64,000 bases of DNA from Deltaproteobacteria bacterium HGW-Deltaproteobacteria-12 (GTDB lineage: Bacteria > Desulfobacterota > Syntrophia > Syntrophales > Smithellaceae): assembly GCA_002840565.1 (NCBI GenBank), contig PHBK01000018.1:88599-152598 (forward strand), in the 5' to 3' direction. A model generated the notes under the pieces. That model saw nothing but the letters and a program-made list of their open reading frames with translations. It made no database searches and was not told the DNA's origin. A program made the translations under genes and the position numbers. Positions 47,039 to 59,766 of the stretch are shown piece after piece (the first letter of the stretch is position 1; each line of letters begins with the position of its first letter).

Positions 47039-47386
47039 TTAAACATCAAGATTTTCAATGGATATCCCAAGCGCTTCGGCAATCTTTTCAAGGGTAGCGC
47101 GACGCGGTTTAGCGGTGGGCTTTTCTAATTTTGCGACGGCGGCTTGACTCACACCGATACGGGCAGCAAGCTCTTTTTGTGTAATTCCGATGTGATCACG
47201 CCATGCCCGGATCATAGGTATTGCCCGCAAAAGATGTGCTTCAACAACCGCTTGAGGTATACCCATGGAGCGGATCTTGTCGCCATCCAGCAAGGGACGG
47301 ATACGATTGAATTCGTCCCAGGGAACCAGCACAAAAGCCGGATTGCCTTGATAATCTATCGTTTGGTAATCAATATGTGTTTTCAT
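47039..47386 (-). CDS. XRE-type HTH antitoxin
   Basis: MIRAWRDHIGITQKELAARIGVSQAAVAKLEKP. Confidence 0.85.
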   Translation of the reverse strand: MKTHIDYQTIDYQGNPAFVLVPWDEFNRIRPLLDGDKIRSMGIPQAVVEAHLLRAIPMIRAWRDHIGITQKELAARIGVSQAAVAKLEKPTAKPRRATLEKIAEALGISIENLDV

Positions 47387-47624
47387 CTCGCTTTTTAACC
47401 TCTTCTATACTGATGATACTGATTTCTTCAAACACATCGAATAGTATCCGCCAGTTTCCCACACGCAGTCGATATGCTCGCTCGTGATTGGCTAAACGCT
47501 TGACATTGGAACATGCCGGGAACTTGGATAAACCTCGCGAAGCCGTCAGAATGCGCCCCTGAATGCCGCGTTCCCCAATCTTCTTAAGTTGCTTAAATGC
47601 CCTGGGCTGCCAGATGACGTCCAT
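47370..47624 (-). CDS. RelE/ParE family toxin
   Basis: VIWQPRAFKQLKKIG...VKRLANHERAYRLRVGNWRILFDV; overlaps the antitoxin by 17 bp. Confidence 0.85.
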   Translation of the reverse strand: MDVIWQPRAFKQLKKIGERGIQGRILTASRGLSKFPACSNVKRLANHERAYRLRVGNWRILFDVFEEISIISIEEVKKRDENTY

Positions 47625-47817: not shown

Positions 47818-48624
47818 ATGACAACAAGAGACGCCATTCACATTTTTCAAATCTCACAGAAAAATCTCCATAGGAAGAGAACCACGGAAAGCTAACGTTA
47901 CCTTCTTGAACATCTCGAAAATCATTTTACAGATATTCATGTCGAGGCGATCACCCCTGATCAAATCTACCAATTTCTGGAAGCTTTAACGGAGCGTATG
48001 GCCAAATCAACCAGGAGATTACGATATGCCCAGGTGAAAGCATTCTTCAATTTCCTGATAAACGAGAAGGCAGTTCCCATCAAGAATCCTTGCCAGGATT
48101 CGATCATGGTCAAGGCTTTCAAAAGTCCAAGGATGAAACAGAAGGACATCCTCAGCAGAGAAAGCGTTGATGAAATCATTTATCGGAGCAAAAAGATCAG
48201 GGACAGGCTGATTTTGGAACTTCAGGCAAGGTGCGGCATGAGAATAGGAGAGGTCTTGAATCTCAGGGTAAAGGATATTACTGACCGGAAGCTGATGATC
48301 CGGCAACCCAAATCTGGGAAGGATATAGAAGTTGCCTTCGCAAAGAGGTTGTCTGAATATGTCCGGGGCTGTCAGCATGAACCGGAGAGCAGGATTTTCC
48401 CGATATGCTATTCTTCTGCCCTACCTGTGGTGAGGAAGCTTGGCGAAAAGGTCGGAGTCCAAATCCGTCACAATGATCTACGAAGATATTCGGCCACCCA
48501 TACCAGTCGTAACGGCATCCCTCTGGAAGTCGTATCAGAGGTTCTTCTCCGGCATCAGGATCTTAAAACCACTCAGATGTACCTGGGGAAAATCACCGAT
48601 ACGGAAGCAATAAGATGGATGTGA
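47818..48624 (+). pseudogene. Tyrosine recombinase/integrase interrupted by in-frame TAA at 47893-47895
   Basis: MTTRDAIHIFQISQKNLHRKRTTES-stop-RYLLEHLENHFTDIHVEAITPDQIYQFLEALTERMAKSTRRLRYAQVKAF...HNDLRRYSATHTSRNGIPLEVVSEVLLRHQDLKTTQMYLG; same frame before and after the stop. Confidence 0.85.
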
Positions 48625-49325: not shown

Positions 49326-51836
49326 ATGAAAACTGTTGCCGTGCCGGAATTTACCATCAAAGAGCCGAGAGGATTGTCGGAACGTATCCAATGGTTGCGC
49401 GATTATTATTTTCGGGGAACTGAACGCTCCTGGAATAATGAGTTTACCTCATGGACCACCGGCACGCCCTGGGACATCATCTACAATGAGCTGACCTTTT
49501 ATATTGTGCCGGAAACATACATGCTGCTCAATACGCTGGGAGCGTCTTATCTGCAGGCAGCCAGGCCGGTCCTGCTTCCTGAAGAATTCTGGCAGTGGCC
49601 GCGGGTCGAGAGACGCGCCTGGTTTGTGAAGGATGTGATCATTAATTATGTGCCGCAGGAAATACTGCCGGGTGATCTGCTGGCCGGAGCCAGATTCAAC
49701 ATTCAAACGTCACTGTGCTTTGATGAACAGGAAAGCAAAGAATGGCTGAGGCTGGTGAAGGGTAAAAACGGTGCCCGGGCGCAGATGAAATGGTTTCATG
49801 ATCACGGATACGGCAATGCCGGCGCCACCAGCGGTCATCTTGTCCCCGGTTATGAGAACCTGCTCAAAATCGGCTGGAAGGGGGTGCATGCAAATCTTCT
49901 TTCCCTTTATAATGCGCTGGATAATCAGGAGCGCCGGGGCGCAAAAGGAGCTCAGCTCAAAGCCATGCTCACAGCCGCAACCATGGCGCGGGACCTGGCT
50001 TATAAATATCGAGACTTGTGCCTGGACCTCGCACAAAAGGAGCAAAACCCTGTCCGCCGCACTGAACTTACGGTAATGGCTCAGAACTTAAACAAAATTC
50101 CCTGGGAGCCGGCCGGTAATTTCTGGGAAGCCGTTCAGGCGCTGTGGATTAACCACATGCTGGTGCTGACAGACGAAAATTACCCCGGCGCCGGTGTTTC
50201 TTTTGGCCGGGTTGACCAGTATCTTTATCCTTATTACGAAAGATCGATCCTTGACGGCATGGATCGGGAATTTATCAAAGAAATCCTGAAATGTTTCTGG
50301 TTTCACGCCAATACGGCTTATGATGCGATGATCCGCAACGGCAACCAGGGAATCACCGCCGGTTTCGGACAGCTTATCACTCTGTCCGGGTTGGGCATGG
50401 GCGGCAGAGACATGACCAATGACCTGACCTATGTCATCCTCGAAGTGATTGACGAGATGTCGCCTATTCTGGAACCGAAGCCCAATGTGCGGCTGCATCG
50501 CCACAGCCCCGAAGAGCTGTATGATAAAGTTGTGGACATGATTGAATCCAGCCAGGGAGCTCCTTTCCTGCTTAATTTTGATGAACGCTCCATGGCCGGG
50601 ATGATGCTGGAGGCCAAAAAAGCCGGTCTCTCCCATCTTATTCACAAGGACAATGTCCATGAATACGCGCCCGTCGGCTGCCTGGAAAATACAATGGTCG
50701 GCAACGACCGTTCCGGTACGGTGGACAACAATCTCAATCTGCTGAAAGCGGTGGAACTGACGCTGACCGGGGGAAAAGATTTGCTTCCCTTCACGGACCC
50801 CATGACCGGCAAGACCGCAGCCCCGAGGCAGGATGGCCCCCGCACACCGGATGCCTCCTCTTTTAAGACATGGGAGGAATTCTGGGCGGCTTATGCCGTG
50901 CAGACAAGATATATTATTCAAAAATGCGTTGATGTTTATGAAGCTTCGGAATCAGTCCGCGCCCGATTCTTTCCCACGCCTTATCTTTCCTGCCTGGTCA
51001 AGGGCTGCGCGGAAAAAGGCAAGGATGTCACACAAGGTGGGGCGGAAATCAGTCTCACCACATTGGAGGCGGTTACCTATGCTACGACCGTGGATTCGCT
51101 GCTGGCCATAAAATATCTGGTTTTCGACAAAAAAACATGCACTCTGCAGGAATTGGTGTCCGCCCTTGGAGCCAACTGGCAGGGCTACGAGGTTTTGCAG
51201 GCCACGGCCAAAAACCGCGCGCCCAAATATGGCCGCGACGACGATGCAGCGGATGCCATGGCCTCCAAAGTCATGCAGTTATGGTGCGAGGAGACCTGGC
51301 GGCAGAGCACAAGATCAACCGGGCGCAAATACCGTCCGGGGATGCTGAGCTGGAATTACTGGGCTGGTGACGGGTACATCATGGCGGCAAGTGCGGATGG
51401 CCGGGCCAAGGGGCAGTTCCTTTCCAACGCGATCTGTCCCTCCAATGGTGCGGATATTAACGGACCGACGGCTAATGCCAACTCGGTGGGGAAGGTGCTG
51501 GGCGGCAAAGCGTCCGACAGGAACGGCGACTGGGAGGATTACTTCAACGTACTGCCTAATGGAGCCAGCCACACTATAACTTTCAATCCTTCCATTCTGC
51601 GTGATCCCGTCCACAAGGAGAAGTTCAAGGCATTTCTGAGGGGCTACACCCTGAACGGCGGTACGGCCCTGCAGATCAATATGCTTGATCCCGGTGTGCT
51701 CAAAGACGCCCAGTCTCATCCGCAGAACTATCGACATCTCCTGGTGCGCATTACCGGTTATAATGCCTACTTTACGACTGTAGGACGGGAACTGCAAAAC
51801 GAAGTGATCGAACGCGTCAGTCACGGTAAATTTTAG
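49326..51836 (+). CDS. Glycyl radical enzyme (PFL-like), substrate unknown
   Basis: 836 aa; active-site Cys452 in YAPVGCLENTMVGNDRSG; radical Gly811 in LLVRITGYNAYFTTVGRELQNEVIER; adjacent activase. Confidence 0.93.
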   Translation: MKTVAVPEFTIKEPRGLSERIQWLRDYYFRGTERSWNNEFTSWTTGTPWDIIYNELTFYIVPETYMLLNTLGASYLQAARPVLLPEEFWQWPRVERRAWFVKDVIINYVPQEILPGDLLAGARFNIQTSLCFDEQESKEWLRLVKGKNGARAQMKWFHDHGYGNAGATSGHLVPGYENLLKIGWKGVHANLLSLYNALDNQERRGAKGAQLKAMLTAATMARDLAYKYRDLCLDLAQKEQNPVRRTELTVMAQNLNKIPWEPAGNFWEAVQALWINHMLVLTDENYPGAGVSFGRVDQYLYPYYERSILDGMDREFIKEILKCFWFHANTAYDAMIRNGNQGITAGFGQLITLSGLGMGGRDMTNDLTYVILEVIDEMSPILEPKPNVRLHRHSPEELYDKVVDMIESSQGAPFLLNFDERSMAGMMLEAKKAGLSHLIHKDNVHEYAPVGCLENTMVGNDRSGTVDNNLNLLKAVELTLTGGKDLLPFTDPMTGKTAAPRQDGPRTPDASSFKTWEEFWAAYAVQTRYIIQKCVDVYEASESVRARFFPTPYLSCLVKGCAEKGKDVTQGGAEISLTTLEAVTYATTVDSLLAIKYLVFDKKTCTLQELVSALGANWQGYEVLQATAKNRAPKYGRDDDAADAMASKVMQLWCEETWRQSTRSTGRKYRPGMLSWNYWAGDGYIMAASADGRAKGQFLSNAICPSNGADINGPTANANSVGKVLGGKASDRNGDWEDYFNVLPNGASHTITFNPSILRDPVHKEKFKAFLRGYTLNGGTALQINMLDPGVLKDAQSHPQNYRHLLVRITGYNAYFTTVGRELQNEVIERVSHGKF

Positions 51837-51846
51837 GATATTCCCC

Positions 51847-52884
51847 ATGCGCGAACCGGAGACAAATAAAGACATGCAGGGGACCGTCCTGCAAATTATC
51901 CGCATGTCCACGGAGGACGGCCCCGGCATAAGGACAACAGTCTTCCTCAAGGGATGCCCGCTTCACTGCCTGTGGTGCCATAATCCGGAAAGTATCAGTC
52001 CCAGGCCCCAGATTCAGTGGATCAAGACAAGCTGTATCGGATGTGGAATTTGTGTAAAGGCCTGCCCGGAAAAGGCGCTCGAGCAGACTGAAAAAGATAT
52101 CAGCATCAACCATTCAACCTGCAACGGGTGCGGTTTATGCACAGAAGAATGCCCCACAACCGCCATGGAACTTCTGGGCAAAAAATGGAATGTTCATGAT
52201 CTGGCCGGCGAACTGGTGAAGGACCGCGCTTATTTTGAACAGTCGGGCGGCGGTGTTACGCTTTCCGGAGGGGAGGCCGCCCTGCAAAATAATTTTTGCC
52301 GTGCCCTGTTGCAAGAGCTGAAAAGCCGCGGAATTTCGACTGCCCTGGATACGTGCGGGCTGATTTCCCAGGCAGCGCTGGCCGGCCTTTTGCCTTATGT
52401 TGATCTTCTGCTGTACGATCTAAAAGAGATCAATCCGGAAAAGCATAAAAAGTTTACAGGGGCGGGCAACGAAAAGATCCTGGCCAACGCCATTTTCGCC
52501 GCCAATTATAAAAAAACACATCCGTCCCTCAAGACAATATGGATACGCACGCCAGTGATTCCCCGCGCGACAGATACTGCCGAAAACATATTGGGCCTAG
52601 GAGATTTTATCGCGGAAAACCTCCGGGGAACTGTCGCCCGGTGGGAGCTTTGCGCCTTTAACAATCTGTGCCGGGATAAGTATGACCGGCTGGGAATGAA
52701 ATGGCCTTATGCCCGGGAAGAACTTCTGGAAAGGTCACTGGTGGAGACGCTGGCCCAGGTTGCACGGACCAAAGTTTCTCCATCGATTGTTTGCTGGAGC
52801 GGATCAACGAAACTGGAGCAAAAGACAAGCGACCAATCGGTGGAAAAGGCTGCAAATGGCAACGTGACTATTTCCGTCTGCTGA
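51847..52884 (+). CDS. Glycyl radical enzyme activating protein (radical SAM, two-cluster ferredoxin insert)
   Basis: STEDGPGIRTTVFLKGCPLHCLWCHNPES; CIGCGICVKACPEKAL; CNGCGLCTEECPTTAME. Confidence 0.95.
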   Translation: MREPETNKDMQGTVLQIIRMSTEDGPGIRTTVFLKGCPLHCLWCHNPESISPRPQIQWIKTSCIGCGICVKACPEKALEQTEKDISINHSTCNGCGLCTEECPTTAMELLGKKWNVHDLAGELVKDRAYFEQSGGGVTLSGGEAALQNNFCRALLQELKSRGISTALDTCGLISQAALAGLLPYVDLLLYDLKEINPEKHKKFTGAGNEKILANAIFAANYKKTHPSLKTIWIRTPVIPRATDTAENILGLGDFIAENLRGTVARWELCAFNNLCRDKYDRLGMKWPYAREELLERSLVETLAQVARTKVSPSIVCWSGSTKLEQKTSDQSVEKAANGNVTISVC

Positions 52885-52908
52885 AGATAAAAAGAAAGGA
52901 AGAAGGCC

Positions 52909-53754
52909 ATGACCATGAAAAAAATATTTTCTACAGACGACATCAAGGCTTTTGCCCCTTCCGAGAAAGTGGGAATCATTGCCACGGTAACGGAGGAAGG
53001 TCTGCCCCATATGTCGCTGCTGACTTCGGTGATGGCTGCCGGACCGGATCAGCTGACCGTGGGAGAATTCTGCAAAGGGCTGAGCAAGGAATACATGCAG
53101 CGCAACAGGAACATAGCTTTTGCCATCCTGACCCTGGATAAGAAGCTCTGGCGCGGCAAGGCCATCTGGACTCAGCTGAAGAAAGAAGGCCCGGAATATG
53201 AAATATACAACAATCAGCCCATGTTCCGGTACAATACCTATTTCGGCATCAACACCGTGCATTATTTTAATCTCCTGGAAACAACAACCGGTGTTGCACT
53301 GCCGCTGGCGTCCGTTGTAAAATCGGCAATACTGACGAAAATGGCCAAAGGCAGCGCCGCAAAAGACAACGGCGCAAGAGTGCTGTCTTATTTTGGAGAA
53401 AATTTATTCAACGGGCTGGATTCTCTTAAATTCTTATCCTTCATTGCCCGGGACGGATTTCCTTCCATCATTCCTGTCATCCAATGCCAGGCAGCCGACA
53501 GCGGCCGCCTCGCTTTTTATCCGGGAGCTTTTGGCGCCGAGCTTACCAAACTCGAGCAGGGGATGACGCTGGCTGTTTTTGGCCTGACCATGCAGATGGA
53601 GGATGTCCTGGTGCGCGGGATCTTTAACGGCTATTCCCGCTATCGGGGCGTGAAGCTGGGAACCGTCGATATTGACTGGGTCTACAACTCCATGCCGCCG
53701 AACCACGGACGGATTTATCCGCCGGTGCCCCTGGAGCGGGTGGTGAATTTCTAA
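52909..53754 (+). CDS. Pyridoxamine 5'-phosphate oxidase-like FMN-binding split-barrel protein
   Basis: VGIIATVTEEGLPHMSLLTSVMAAGPDQLTVGEF; second domain FIARDGFPSIIPVIQCQAADSGRLAFYPG. Confidence 0.7.
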   Translation: MTMKKIFSTDDIKAFAPSEKVGIIATVTEEGLPHMSLLTSVMAAGPDQLTVGEFCKGLSKEYMQRNRNIAFAILTLDKKLWRGKAIWTQLKKEGPEYEIYNNQPMFRYNTYFGINTVHYFNLLETTTGVALPLASVVKSAILTKMAKGSAAKDNGARVLSYFGENLFNGLDSLKFLSFIARDGFPSIIPVIQCQAADSGRLAFYPGAFGAELTKLEQGMTLAVFGLTMQMEDVLVRGIFNGYSRYRGVKLGTVDIDWVYNSMPPNHGRIYPPVPLERVVNF

Positions 53755-55452: not shown

Positions 55453-58400
55453 TCAGTGAATTATTTTTCGATCCAGTACCACGGGTTGCACACCTTGGCG
55501 TTCAATCATCGCATCGGCATCCGGGTTTCCCCGGAAACGCAGAACATTGAGCATGAATATTTCCAGCTTGTTGAGAACATTCGGCGGCAGCAGGTTGCCG
55601 TCGATTTCAATGGAAATGACCGGGTATTTCCGCTCCCGCGCCCACGGAGTAATCAATCCTTCAATTACACGGCCGATCAGGCAGGCAAAAGGAGAGATGT
55701 TGACGATGCCGGAATATCCATCCATCATTGCTGTTGCCGCCACTCCGCTGGATATGCTTATCTCTGAATAAAGTTCATGGCTCACAAAATGTTTCTCGGT
55801 GTTTTTCATGATTTCGTTCATGTCGTGCGGAGTTTTCGGAATCAGGTTGGTTGCGCCGAGAATGTCGCCGACTTTTTTTACCACATTGTTTTTGTAAGTA
55901 TGCTCGATATTCCAGTTAATCAGGTCCATAAACTCTTTGGCAAAGGCCCGGCGGTACCAGGGGATTAATTTCAATCTCTTTTTCAGTTCATACTTCCGGA
56001 CAAAATCACAATAGTAAACCCACTCGGCGACATTGGACACTTTCCCGATGATTCCGCGCCGGCTGAAATGCGCAATCAATTCATCCACGGCAAAATCGTC
56101 GCGCCGCACATATATCTCGCCGACTATAAGCACCTTGGAACAATCTTCCATCTTTTTCTTGAGAGGAATCCGGGCGATCTCATCGGATATTTCTTTTAAA
56201 ACCGGCAATACCTGGGTCACGTTTTTTTCCGCAACGCTGATCATCTTGCGCCAGAGTCCGTCATATGTTGCCATTGCCTGCACCGGATCGGCGGCGCAGG
56301 TTCGGAGCGTGGTTTCCACGTCTTTCATCTGGTCGCCGATAATAATCGACCACCAGGCATGTTTGGAAAATTCCGGGCCGAGCTCATTGTACGAATTATC
56401 GGAATCCAGAGTAAAGACGACAACATTTTCCAGGCGGAGATCCTTGAAAAGATTTTCATAGAAGACAAAATACTGGCCTGTCCGGCAGGGCCCGGTAGTT
56501 GTGGGGACAAATAAGATATATATTTCGTCTTTCCGGTATTTTTCTGAAGAAAAATATTGCAGTGCGCTGCCCAAGACCAGGTGCGAGGGCAGACACTCTT
56601 TGCCGGAGGCATGATTCCGGGCCAGCTGCAGTGTATGGATATCCGGCACGGGCATCGTTTCGGCGTTGATACCCAATCCGCGGATCGTCGCTCCGATCAA
56701 TTCCGCCGAAAGCCGGCCCATGTTGGAGAGCAGCAGCTTTATCCGGGGGTTATTTTTGATCGGTATCTTTTCGCCGGTGATGGCGTTTTGAATATGGATT
56801 TCTTCACCCGGATTATTGATGAAGCGCAAACCATTGTCGTATCTTTCCTCGCGGATGCTGATGATTTTTGATCTGTATCCCTCAATAATATCCAGAAACG
56901 CTTCAATACGCGTATCCACTCCGGCATCGGCGGTATGCGAATCCATCTCCAGAATCAGGAAAGGCTTGGTTCCCATAATCCATTTCAGATAATGCAGCAT
57001 AAAGGAATCCGGCGCACAGGAAAAATTCGAGATATAGGTAACATAGATATTATCCTCGTTTTTGAGGAGCATGGCGGCTTTCATATCCTGCTGTCCGTAA
57101 TACCAGTACATGTTCGGATAAATGGCCTCTTCTTCGAAAGGCAGGATGTCGAAGGGAACCACCGAATAACCGCGAGTGGAGAATTTTCGCGGTACGCCCA
57201 TATTGGCGTCGGTTGTAAAAGCATTATAAGGCCTGCCCAGCAGAGCAATCACCGGACGGGAAGAGAGCCTGGCCTCGGCCAGCGCCGTTTTTCCCATCTC
57301 CTGCGCCCGACGAAAATATTCCAGCTGCTTTTCGTTGGCGATTGCAAAAGCGCTGCGGGATTCCCTTTCCGTAAAGCCAAGCTTGATTCCCGTCTCAATA
57401 AAAGATTCAGCGGCTTTCTCCAGACCATACATAAAGCTGATGACGGGCAATAAAAATCTGTCCTCGGGGATTTCCGGAAAAGCCTTTTGAATATAATAGG
57501 GCAGTCCCTGCGTAATGGGACAGAGATTGGCGGGGGCATCCTTTTCATAGCTTTCCATATCTTTAAAGTGGGGCAGGAAGATGTAATCCAGATTGCGGTC
57601 AAAAATATCCTGAACGGCCCCGTGGGCAATTTCCGCCGGGAAACAATAACTGCTTTCCACCCGGGCCGTCCCTTCATGGGATATGTTTTGCGAAAGCGCA
57701 GCCTCCACTCCCAAAGAGTGGAAAAACCAGGAATACAAAGGCCAGAGCGTATAAACAGAGAAGCACAGCGGGACGCCCACGACGATTTCTTTTTTCCTTA
57801 CCAGTTTGGCCGGATCAGGAGCGCATTGCTGAAAAAGAAGGTTGTTGCGTTTTTCAACATAGTCGAACACTTCGGCTTCGTTGATGACTTTCTTCTTGCG
57901 CATATTAGCATATTTGTTGCAGCGGCCCCCGAACATGTATTTGTTGTTGTTGACATTGAGAATGCGAATCGGGCAGTAATTATCACAGGACTTGCACTGG
58001 AATTCTTTTTCATAAATGATTTCCGTGGCCAGAATCTTATCTATTTCGAATGAAGATTTTACTATTAAACCGTCGATCAGTTTCTGCCGGGCGAGGATGC
58101 CTACGCCGAAACAGCCCATCATCTCGGGATCAGGCGGCACGAGTATATCCTTATTTAACAACATGGCGAAAGCCAGAGGGATCGCTTTGTTTTTAGCCAC
58201 GCCGCCCTGGAGAACTATGTTCTTGCCGATGGTTCGATTGCCGACAACCCTGTTTAAATAATTGGAAACGATCGAAGTGACAATACCGGCGGTGATGTCT
58301 TCACGGGAGGCGCCCTGCAAAATGGCATTGCGGATGTCGGAGTTAATAAATGCGGAACAGTGCTCACCGAACTTGAGCGGTTCGGAAGCGCCAACGGCGA

Positions 58401-59766
58401 TGTCACCGATTTCCCAGGCGCTGGCAATATTCAAATCTCCCTGGGCCGATTCTTCGAGAAAGGAACCTGTACCGGCCGAACAGGCTTCATTCATGGCGTA
58501 ATCAATCGGCACCTTGTTCTTGAGAAAAACATATTTAGCATCCTGCCCGCCGATTTCAAAGATTGTATCAATCTCTTCCCGGTAAAAAGTAGTCCCGACG
58601 GCATGCGCTATTATTTCGTTATAGACGGCCGGCGTTTCCAGAAAAACGCCGAGGATTTCCCGGGATGATCCGGTTGTTGAAGCCAGCGTTATCCTGATTT
58701 GCCCGTCGCCAATATCTTCTTTAATCTGTTTTTTCATTTCGAGCAGGCAGTTTTTTAAAGCCTTCACCGGGTCGCCATGGGTCCGGCCATAGAAGGAGGC
58801 AGTGACTTCGCTTGTTTCCATGTCAATCAGGGAGGCCTTGGTTGTTGTCGATCCGCCGTCGACGCCCAGAATGTACTCACGGCCGGCAACAACTTTCCCT
58901 TTTCTGGAGGATAGATAAGTTACACGGCTGGCCGCGGTCATCAGATTCTTAAACCGTTTGTATTGCACTTTCCCCTGTTGAAATAACTTTTCCAATGGGG
59001 GTAATATGGAGCCGGAATCTTTTGCCAGAAGCGCAGCTCCATATGCTTCAAAGTATGCGGCCGGCTCGGGAACAATAAACTCAATTTGCGGCATCCTTTC
59101 CCGGATGAACTGCAGGATATACTTATTCCGGGTAACGCCGCCGACCAGCAGGACTTTCCCTTTGGATATTCTGGCTCTTTTAAGGAAATCAATAACTTTT
59201 GTAGCCATTACATCCGAGAGCGACAGGACAATATCACCTTTCTTGGCCTCTCCTTTATTCAAGCGGTGTGTGCAGTCACTTTTCATGAAAACCGAGCAGC
59301 GCGACGACAGCTTCAAGACGCAACTTTGATCGGGTATATCATTAATTTCGGCCAGCCCCATATCCATTCTGGCCAGCTGCTGCTTAAAAAATTCTCCGGT
59401 GCCCGAAGCGCATTTATTTCCGGAAAAGCTGGTAATTATTTTTTTGGTTTTATTATCTATAGTGTAAACAACAAGATCCTCGCCGCCCAGTGAAACTACG
59501 GCGTCCGCTTCGTAATTCAAATGCCGGAGGGCTTCTTCAATGCAGAGTGGCTCGATCACACTGTTGATGTTTAGTAAATGTCTGCCTTCCGTCCCGGTGG
59601 CCAGCACTTTAATTCCGTTCGGAATCTTTTGGATTGATAAAATGTCCCTGAGGGCGTCGACAAAATTTCCTTCATGCGGTTCAACTTTGCTCCACAGAAC
59701 GCTGTATCCTTCCAGCATGGTCACTTTGACATTTGAGGAGCCGATGTTAATTCCCAAACTGTGCAT
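55453..59766 (-). CDS. Acyl-CoA dehydratase activase-type protein (two BadF/HgdC ASKHA domains + DUF2229/HgdB-like region)
   Basis: 1437 aa; LGINIGSSNVKVTM, LGVDGGSTTTKASLID, IFEIGGQDAKYVFLKN, NEACSAGTGSFLEE, LLGRPYNAFTTDANMGVPRK, VPTTTGPCRTGQY. Confidence 0.9.
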   Translation of the reverse strand: MHSLGINIGSSNVKVTMLEGYSVLWSKVEPHEGNFVDALRDILSIQKIPNGIKVLATGTEGRHLLNINSVIEPLCIEEALRHLNYEADAVVSLGGEDLVVYTIDNKTKKIITSFSGNKCASGTGEFFKQQLARMDMGLAEINDIPDQSCVLKLSSRCSVFMKSDCTHRLNKGEAKKGDIVLSLSDVMATKVIDFLKRARISKGKVLLVGGVTRNKYILQFIRERMPQIEFIVPEPAAYFEAYGAALLAKDSGSILPPLEKLFQQGKVQYKRFKNLMTAASRVTYLSSRKGKVVAGREYILGVDGGSTTTKASLIDMETSEVTASFYGRTHGDPVKALKNCLLEMKKQIKEDIGDGQIRITLASTTGSSREILGVFLETPAVYNEIIAHAVGTTFYREEIDTIFEIGGQDAKYVFLKNKVPIDYAMNEACSAGTGSFLEESAQGDLNIASAWEIGDIAVGASEPLKFGEHCSAFINSDIRNAILQGASREDITAGIVTSIVSNYLNRVVGNRTIGKNIVLQGGVAKNKAIPLAFAMLLNKDILVPPDPEMMGCFGVGILARQKLIDGLIVKSSFEIDKILATEIIYEKEFQCKSCDNYCPIRILNVNNNKYMFGGRCNKYANMRKKKVINEAEVFDYVEKRNNLLFQQCAPDPAKLVRKKEIVVGVPLCFSVYTLWPLYSWFFHSLGVEAALSQNISHEGTARVESSYCFPAEIAHGAVQDIFDRNLDYIFLPHFKDMESYEKDAPANLCPITQGLPYYIQKAFPEIPEDRFLLPVISFMYGLEKAAESFIETGIKLGFTERESRSAFAIANEKQLEYFRRAQEMGKTALAEARLSSRPVIALLGRPYNAFTTDANMGVPRKFSTRGYSVVPFDILPFEEEAIYPNMYWYYGQQDMKAAMLLKNEDNIYVTYISNFSCAPDSFMLHYLKWIMGTKPFLILEMDSHTADAGVDTRIEAFLDIIEGYRSKIISIREERYDNGLRFINNPGEEIHIQNAITGEKIPIKNNPRIKLLLSNMGRLSAELIGATIRGLGINAETMPVPDIHTLQLARNHASGKECLPSHLVLGSALQYFSSEKYRKDEIYILFVPTTTGPCRTGQYFVFYENLFKDLRLENVVVFTLDSDNSYNELGPEFSKHAWWSIIIGDQMKDVETTLRTCAADPVQAMATYDGLWRKMISVAEKNVTQVLPVLKEISDEIARIPLKKKMEDCSKVLIVGEIYVRRDDFAVDELIAHFSRRGIIGKVSNVAEWVYYCDFVRKYELKKRLKLIPWYRRAFAKEFMDLINWNIEHTYKNNVVKKVGDILGATNLIPKTPHDMNEIMKNTEKHFVSHELYSEISISSGVAATAMMDGYSGIVNISPFACLIGRVIEGLITPWARERKYPVISIEIDGNLLPPNVLNKLEIFMLNVLRFRGNPDADAMIERQGVQPVVLDRKIIH

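Follow-up and report, generated by a model that had tools for sequence, protein, structure and literature searches.

In glycyl radical enzymes (GREs), an activase sets a radical on a glycine, from which it passes to a cysteine. The described GREs that invite comparison with the one reported here are the B12-independent glycerol dehydratase (PDB 1r8w and 1r9d), trans-4-hydroxy-L-proline dehydratase HypD (6vxc), Archaeoglobus PflD (2f3o), and the 4-hydroxyphenylacetate and indoleacetate decarboxylases (HPAD and IAD), in which a glutamate is paired to the radical cysteine (PMC6181972). The nearest parallel to the gene arrangement is the limonenylsuccinate synthase operon, which includes LssP, a PNPOx-like protein with no assigned role (PMC12583861). 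Here we describe a GRE, its radical S-adenosylmethionine (SAM) activase and a flavin-type protein encoded side by side in a 64,000-nucleotide stretch, hereafter the window, from Deltaproteobacteria bacterium HGW-Deltaproteobacteria-12 (contig PHBK01000018.1, positions 88,599 to 152,598 of the forward strand). This GRE belongs to a new, well-delimited subfamily, encoded in a conserved module of three genes in which a flavoprotein-type protein is the near-obligate partner.

The GRE is the large, catalytic component of the locus (836 aa; 49326..51836, + strand) and is followed after 10 bp by the activase (345 aa; 51847..52884, +) and, after a further 24 bp, by the flavin-type protein (281 aa; 52909..53754, +). 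The thiyl-radical cysteine, C452 (codon 50679..50681, +), lies within GCLENTMVGNDRSG with E454 two codons on, and the glycyl-radical residue, G811 (51756..51758, +), lies within the C-terminal motif RITGYNAYF. The presence of both the cysteine loop (GCLE) and the glycyl-radical motif, with Pfam scores of 404 bits for PFL-like (PF02901) and 70.5 bits for Gly_radical (PF01228), places the protein in the GRE superfamily. The activase scores 304.5 bits with TIGR02494 (cut-off 174.35), as expected of a dedicated radical-SAM activase, and carries the motif CPLHCLWC (C37/C41/C44) and a ferredoxin insert with two extra [4Fe-4S] sites. Neither a small Fe-S subunit of the benzylsuccinate synthase (Bss) or Hpd type nor microcompartment genes were recognized among the open reading frames (ORFs) flanking the trio. 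An earlier, sequence-only reading of the window had reported the same three ORFs, gaps and radical residues, a two-cluster activase and the absence of these accessory genes, all of which hold.

That reading had also called the GRE an orphan outside the functionally assigned groups, and our results bear this out. The protein falls below every NCBIfam equivalog cut-off, the top equivalog models being HypD, HpsG and HpfG at about 350 bits against cut-offs of 1000-1100 (HypD NF043068, 351/1100; HpsG NF048011 and HpfG NF048009, 351 and 350 against 1000). CutC follows (TIGR04394, 310/1050), then IAD (NF033718, 217/1100), HPAD (NF033715, 165/1150) and pyruvate formate-lyase (PFL; TIGR01255, 81/994), whose adjacent Cys-Cys pair is absent; TIGR01774 and PRK09983 gave 383 and 247 bits. 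In a tree, the clades that we term A, B (Lokiarchaea) and C form one branch with an SH-aLRT of 100 and a long stem, apart from CutC, HypD, HpsG/HpfG, PflD/YbiW and PFL. This was a quick tree in which several reference rows are long-branched, and within it the GRE joined none of the assigned groups tested. HPAD, IAD and Bss sequences were not among its rows, their placement being by model score.

The limits of the subfamily are also apparent from sequence identity. In a genome scan, full-length relatives were 52-90% identical to the window GRE, after which identity dropped to about 30%; the checked hits at that level were sulfopropanediol dehydratases. Hosts of the closer relatives are Syntrophaceae/Smithellaceae and other Deltaproteobacteria, SAR324, Bacteroidetes, Chloroflexi and Lokiarchaeota, and a more distant GRE clade (42-46% identity) was reached via the flavin-type protein. 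The three clades have in common the motif GCLENT[ML]xG[ND]DxSGTV, save for one Asgard sequence in which the Arg after the Asp is replaced and one sequence with C for N/D. On the family profile, members score at least 592 bits (phylum survey) versus at most 416 for other GREs in the loci fetched by then; three second GREs of Asgard genomes score 444-466. About 165 N-terminal residues found no alignment to other GREs in profile searches, and a PDB search with the loop alone returned no significant relative.

The strictest partner of this GRE is the flavin-type protein, a relationship that was not visible to the sequence-only reading. In the phylum of the window, the flavin-type protein occurs in 35/345 genomes and the family GRE in 36/341; all 35 genomes with the protein also have the GRE, and 35 of the 36 GRE genomes have the protein, the sole GRE-only genome having its GRE on a 5.4-kb contig (G275). 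Among 195 genomes of a Lokiarchaeon's phylum (Asgard group), each was found in 85, both in 77 and either one singly in 8, some of these counts being near thresholds, and 58 of the 64 same-contig pairs lie within 3 kb. A PF02901 GRE was found in 108 genomes, most of them without the flavin-type protein. Fisher values of 5e-47 (window's phylum) and 3e-35 (Asgard group) overstate independence, as the genomes are related, often incomplete metagenome-assembled genomes and phylogeny is ignored; the key point is rather the near one-to-one pattern across two domains. The two proteins also diverge together: over 43 loci, pairwise distances correlate at r=0.956 for GRE and flavin-type protein, compared with 0.659 for GRE and activase and 0.679 for activase and flavin-type protein. 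The trio recurs in dozens of loci over several phyla and is therefore no chance arrangement, but a near-obligate, co-inherited module of several bacterial phyla and Lokiarchaea.

The partner itself scores 21.9 bits with PNPOx_N, under the Pfam cut-off of 28.1, and its AlphaFold2 model (pLDDT 86.2) consists of two split barrels in tandem, with Foldseek matches to split-barrel proteins at E values down to 4e-7. The nearest solved folds are HupZ (5esc, 7kpz), flavin mononucleotide (FMN)-binding proteins such as that of D. vulgaris, F420/FMN reductases and the prenyl-FMN maturase PhdC. These match a single barrel of the partner at a time, whereas the partner has two barrels per chain, about 16% identity or less to its best matches, and a tie to a GRE. 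Of the sequence-only reading's FMN-barrel protein, the barrel fold is thus recovered, and FMN binding is predicted from the modeled fold. The likeness to LssP is by description only, and the GRE of the LssP operon is of the Bss type.

C452 and E454 are invariant in all clades, as is G811. In a profile alignment to glycerol dehydratase (1r8w), E454 falls on E435 and H171 (codon 49836..49838, +; invariant in A1 and A4) on H164, a match likewise missed by the sequence-only reading. H164 and E435 are the catalytic histidine and glutamate of the eliminase group, and D447, H281 and S282 of glycerol dehydratase and D278 and T645 of HypD are substrate-site residues. The window GRE shares with glycerol dehydratase the fold family and the catalytic Cys, Glu, His and Gly, but has lost the other substrate contacts: D447 is replaced by V466, and H281/S282 align with x289/G290. 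It further differs in its first 165 or so residues, which are unaligned, and in its flavin-type partner. HypD is the best phmmer PDB match and keeps the aligned histidine, but its D278 and T645 correspond to G288 and W676. PflD has ENY and PNGAS motifs near the aligned positions, but a GCVE loop and a separate branch. Shared within the family and absent from the other GREs compared in a multiple alignment are W676-N677-Y678-W679, S748-H749-T750 and a two-residue YPGxG insertion, and the substrate-site residues compared differ from those of known GREs. C452, E454 and H171 make up the Cys-Glu-His set known from GRE eliminases, which would favor an eliminase or lyase.

Our preferred reading, a tentative one that we put at slightly short of an even chance, is that the three genes form one functional module in which the GRE is a lyase of a small substrate outside those known for GREs and the flavin-type protein acts on the product. 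The activase would put the radical on G811, from where it would pass to C452, which would abstract a hydrogen next to the leaving group with E454 and H171 acting as in glycerol dehydratase. Most likely, water or another group would be expelled from this small substrate (C-O or other C-X lyase). The direct partner of the tandem split-barrel protein would be the GRE itself, and its most probable task would be redox chemistry on the elimination product, by reduction or oxidation. The computed comparisons show the module and its co-inheritance, its distinctness from the families tested, the conserved Cys, Glu, His and Gly, and the missing substrate contacts of glycerol dehydratase; from these we infer that the GRE is an eliminase, that its partner binds a flavin and that the two steps run in this order.

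Several observations weigh against this lyase-flavoprotein module. HypD, PflD and YbiW keep both Glu and His in a multiple alignment with labeled GREs, so these residues are no proof of elimination, and the AlphaFold model of the GRE has too little confidence around the active site (pLDDT 63.6) to support an analysis of the pocket. Neighbor clustering found no conserved metabolic gene beside the module beyond the GRE, activase, FMN gene and, in bacteria, a FadR-type regulator, and no conserved substrate- or product-handling enzyme. Some Lokiarchaea keep the activase gene paired with the FMN gene at a site away from the GRE, an arrangement that makes it less secure that the flavin-type protein serves the GRE and not GRE activation.

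This last arrangement, together with the usual position of the flavin gene next to the activase and the presence of LssP in the operon of a fumarate-adding GRE (PMC12583861), would suit a protein that donates electrons to the GRE and its activase or helps to repair them, the GRE still having an undescribed lyase reaction. We consider such a helper unlikely, as the flavin-type protein tracks the GRE more closely than it tracks the activase and most genomes with a PF02901 GRE do without it. Moreover, in four loci (L137, L138, L139 and L152) of three genomes, the flavin gene comes after the GRE and there is no intervening activase. For two of these genomes (G077 and G001), the closest activase (48-49% identity) is encoded on a different contig; the third (G041) yielded only activases with identities of about 40-45%. 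Strict co-occurrence, co-divergence and the lack of any other small subunit recognized nearby would equally suit a structural or regulatory GRE subunit comparable to those of Bss and HPAD. The small subunits known from GREs are short Fe-S proteins, whereas the partner has 281 aa folded into two split-barrel domains, and we regard this explanation as improbable.

The sequence-only reading took its lead from the GCLE loop and suggested that a decarboxylase, as in the arylacetate type, or a new C-C/C-X lyase was possible. The GCxE motif would be in keeping with an arylacetate-type decarboxylase, and the aromatic residues W676, Y678 and W679 of the pocket region could fit an aromatic ligand. However, the IAD and HPAD models, by which alone these enzymes were compared, rank under TIGR01774, HypD, HpsG, HpfG, CutC and PRK09983, with only the PFL-1 and short GrcA models below them, and no HPAD-type small Fe-S subunit gene was recognized among the nearby ORFs. 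Nor is GCLE diagnostic of a decarboxylase, since unrelated GREs carry it, namely the second GRE of the source genome (L130, GCLEPNAQGK) and that of L102. The lead is accordingly not sustained, and a decarboxylase is highly improbable.

Archaeal GREs have been labeled alkyl- or benzylsuccinate synthases (PMC8163825), and hosts of the present family include hydrocarbon-associated lineages. Even so, we give very little credence to a fumarate-adding (alkyl- or aryl-succinate synthase) role: E454 follows the radical cysteine, small subunits were not recognized in the flanking ORFs, and MasD and TutD are near the bottom of the PDB matches. To our knowledge, fumarate-adding enzymes have no Glu after the radical Cys. 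The label most often given in databases, pyruvate or 2-oxoacid formate-lyase, draws on the Pfam name and common annotation only and can practically be set aside, given GCLE in place of the Cys-Cys pair (ACCVSP in E. coli PflB) and 81 bits against a PFL cut-off of 994.

That label may nevertheless matter in the archaea. Formate production in Asgard archaea has been inferred from "PFL" or "2-oxoacid-formate lyase" genes (PMC11291895, PMC7015854), and none of the PF02901 matches fetched from ten Asgard genomes and readable at the loop carries the Cys-Cys pair of PFL. Some of the published calls may rest on the GCLE-type family; if they do, the inferred metabolism needs revision. The wide occurrence of the family in anoxic-sediment organisms and its presence in 85/195 Asgard-group genomes makes its reaction probably a common anaerobic step, and the trio points to an undescribed anaerobic reaction by a new GRE branch. 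In the open-access literature, the scope of our search, we found no precedent for the GRE/flavoprotein pairing and no GRE with an obligate flavoprotein; two papers on benzene activation (PMC13101534, PMC13416013) describe no GRE-activase-flavoprotein cluster. It is possible, if on balance doubtful, that the preferred reading extends to a two-enzyme radical-flavin system in which a GRE acts on a substrate class new to GREs and a dedicated tandem-barrel flavoprotein completes the reaction. Such a system would be common in Asgard archaea (~44% of genomes sampled) and sediment bacteria and now mislabeled pyruvate formate-lyase or alkylsuccinate synthase. The family is of interest for how widely it occurs, how strictly the GRE and its partner are paired and how often it may have been misannotated, and not for a demonstrated new reaction.

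Among the neighboring genes, a FadR-type GntR regulator lies 5' of the GRE in about 20 bacterial loci. The window is without it and has in its place a phage-integrase-family gene and an apparent toxin-antitoxin-like pair (47998-48624 and 47039-47624). Many Lokiarchaeal genomes have a sulfatase-superfamily gene beside the activase-FMN pair or the GRE (L208:4542-6077; also L211, L212, L216, L217, L219, L158-L161, L163-L165 and L167-L169), nearest in sequence to arylsulfatase/phosphonate-monoester-hydrolase-type proteins. The single bacterial sulfatase near the module, in one SAR324 genome (L012:6248-7702), is of a different type, and the sulfatase was for this reason not used to name a substrate. 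Found in one or a few loci each are a coenzyme A (CoA) transferase, an acyl-CoA ligase, a molybdenum oxidoreductase, an aldehyde ferredoxin oxidoreductase, thiamine genes and an ATP-binding cassette permease. In L128 (4740-7652), a type II dimethyl sulfoxide reductase-family molybdenum enzyme, ethylbenzene-dehydrogenase-like at a score below cut-off, lies about 17 bp upstream of the GRE, and L005 (3-509) has an aldehyde ferredoxin oxidoreductase fragment about 13 bp upstream.

Further GREs accompany the family in some genomes. A second GRE of another group lies directly beside the module in L127 (9304-11778) and L117 (11647-14091), with the loops GCVEPTMPGRS and GCVELAVPGKS, and the third GRE of the source genome (L131:8238-10679; G000:C20) has a cysteine loop, GCVSTG, without the Glu, although its scores do not group it with fumarate-adding enzymes. 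A hydrophobic, apparently membrane protein of about 210 aa recurs near the module in clades A and C (L014:8167-8805, L120:11758-13102, L124:9241-9870); L120 has two copies in tandem, and the L120 copy gave no Pfam or NCBIfam match. Downstream of the trio in the window, and outside the conserved module, the minus strand encodes a 1437-aa BadF/BadG-type ATPase with a DUF2229 CoA-enzyme-activase domain (55453-59766), which is also found downstream in L004.

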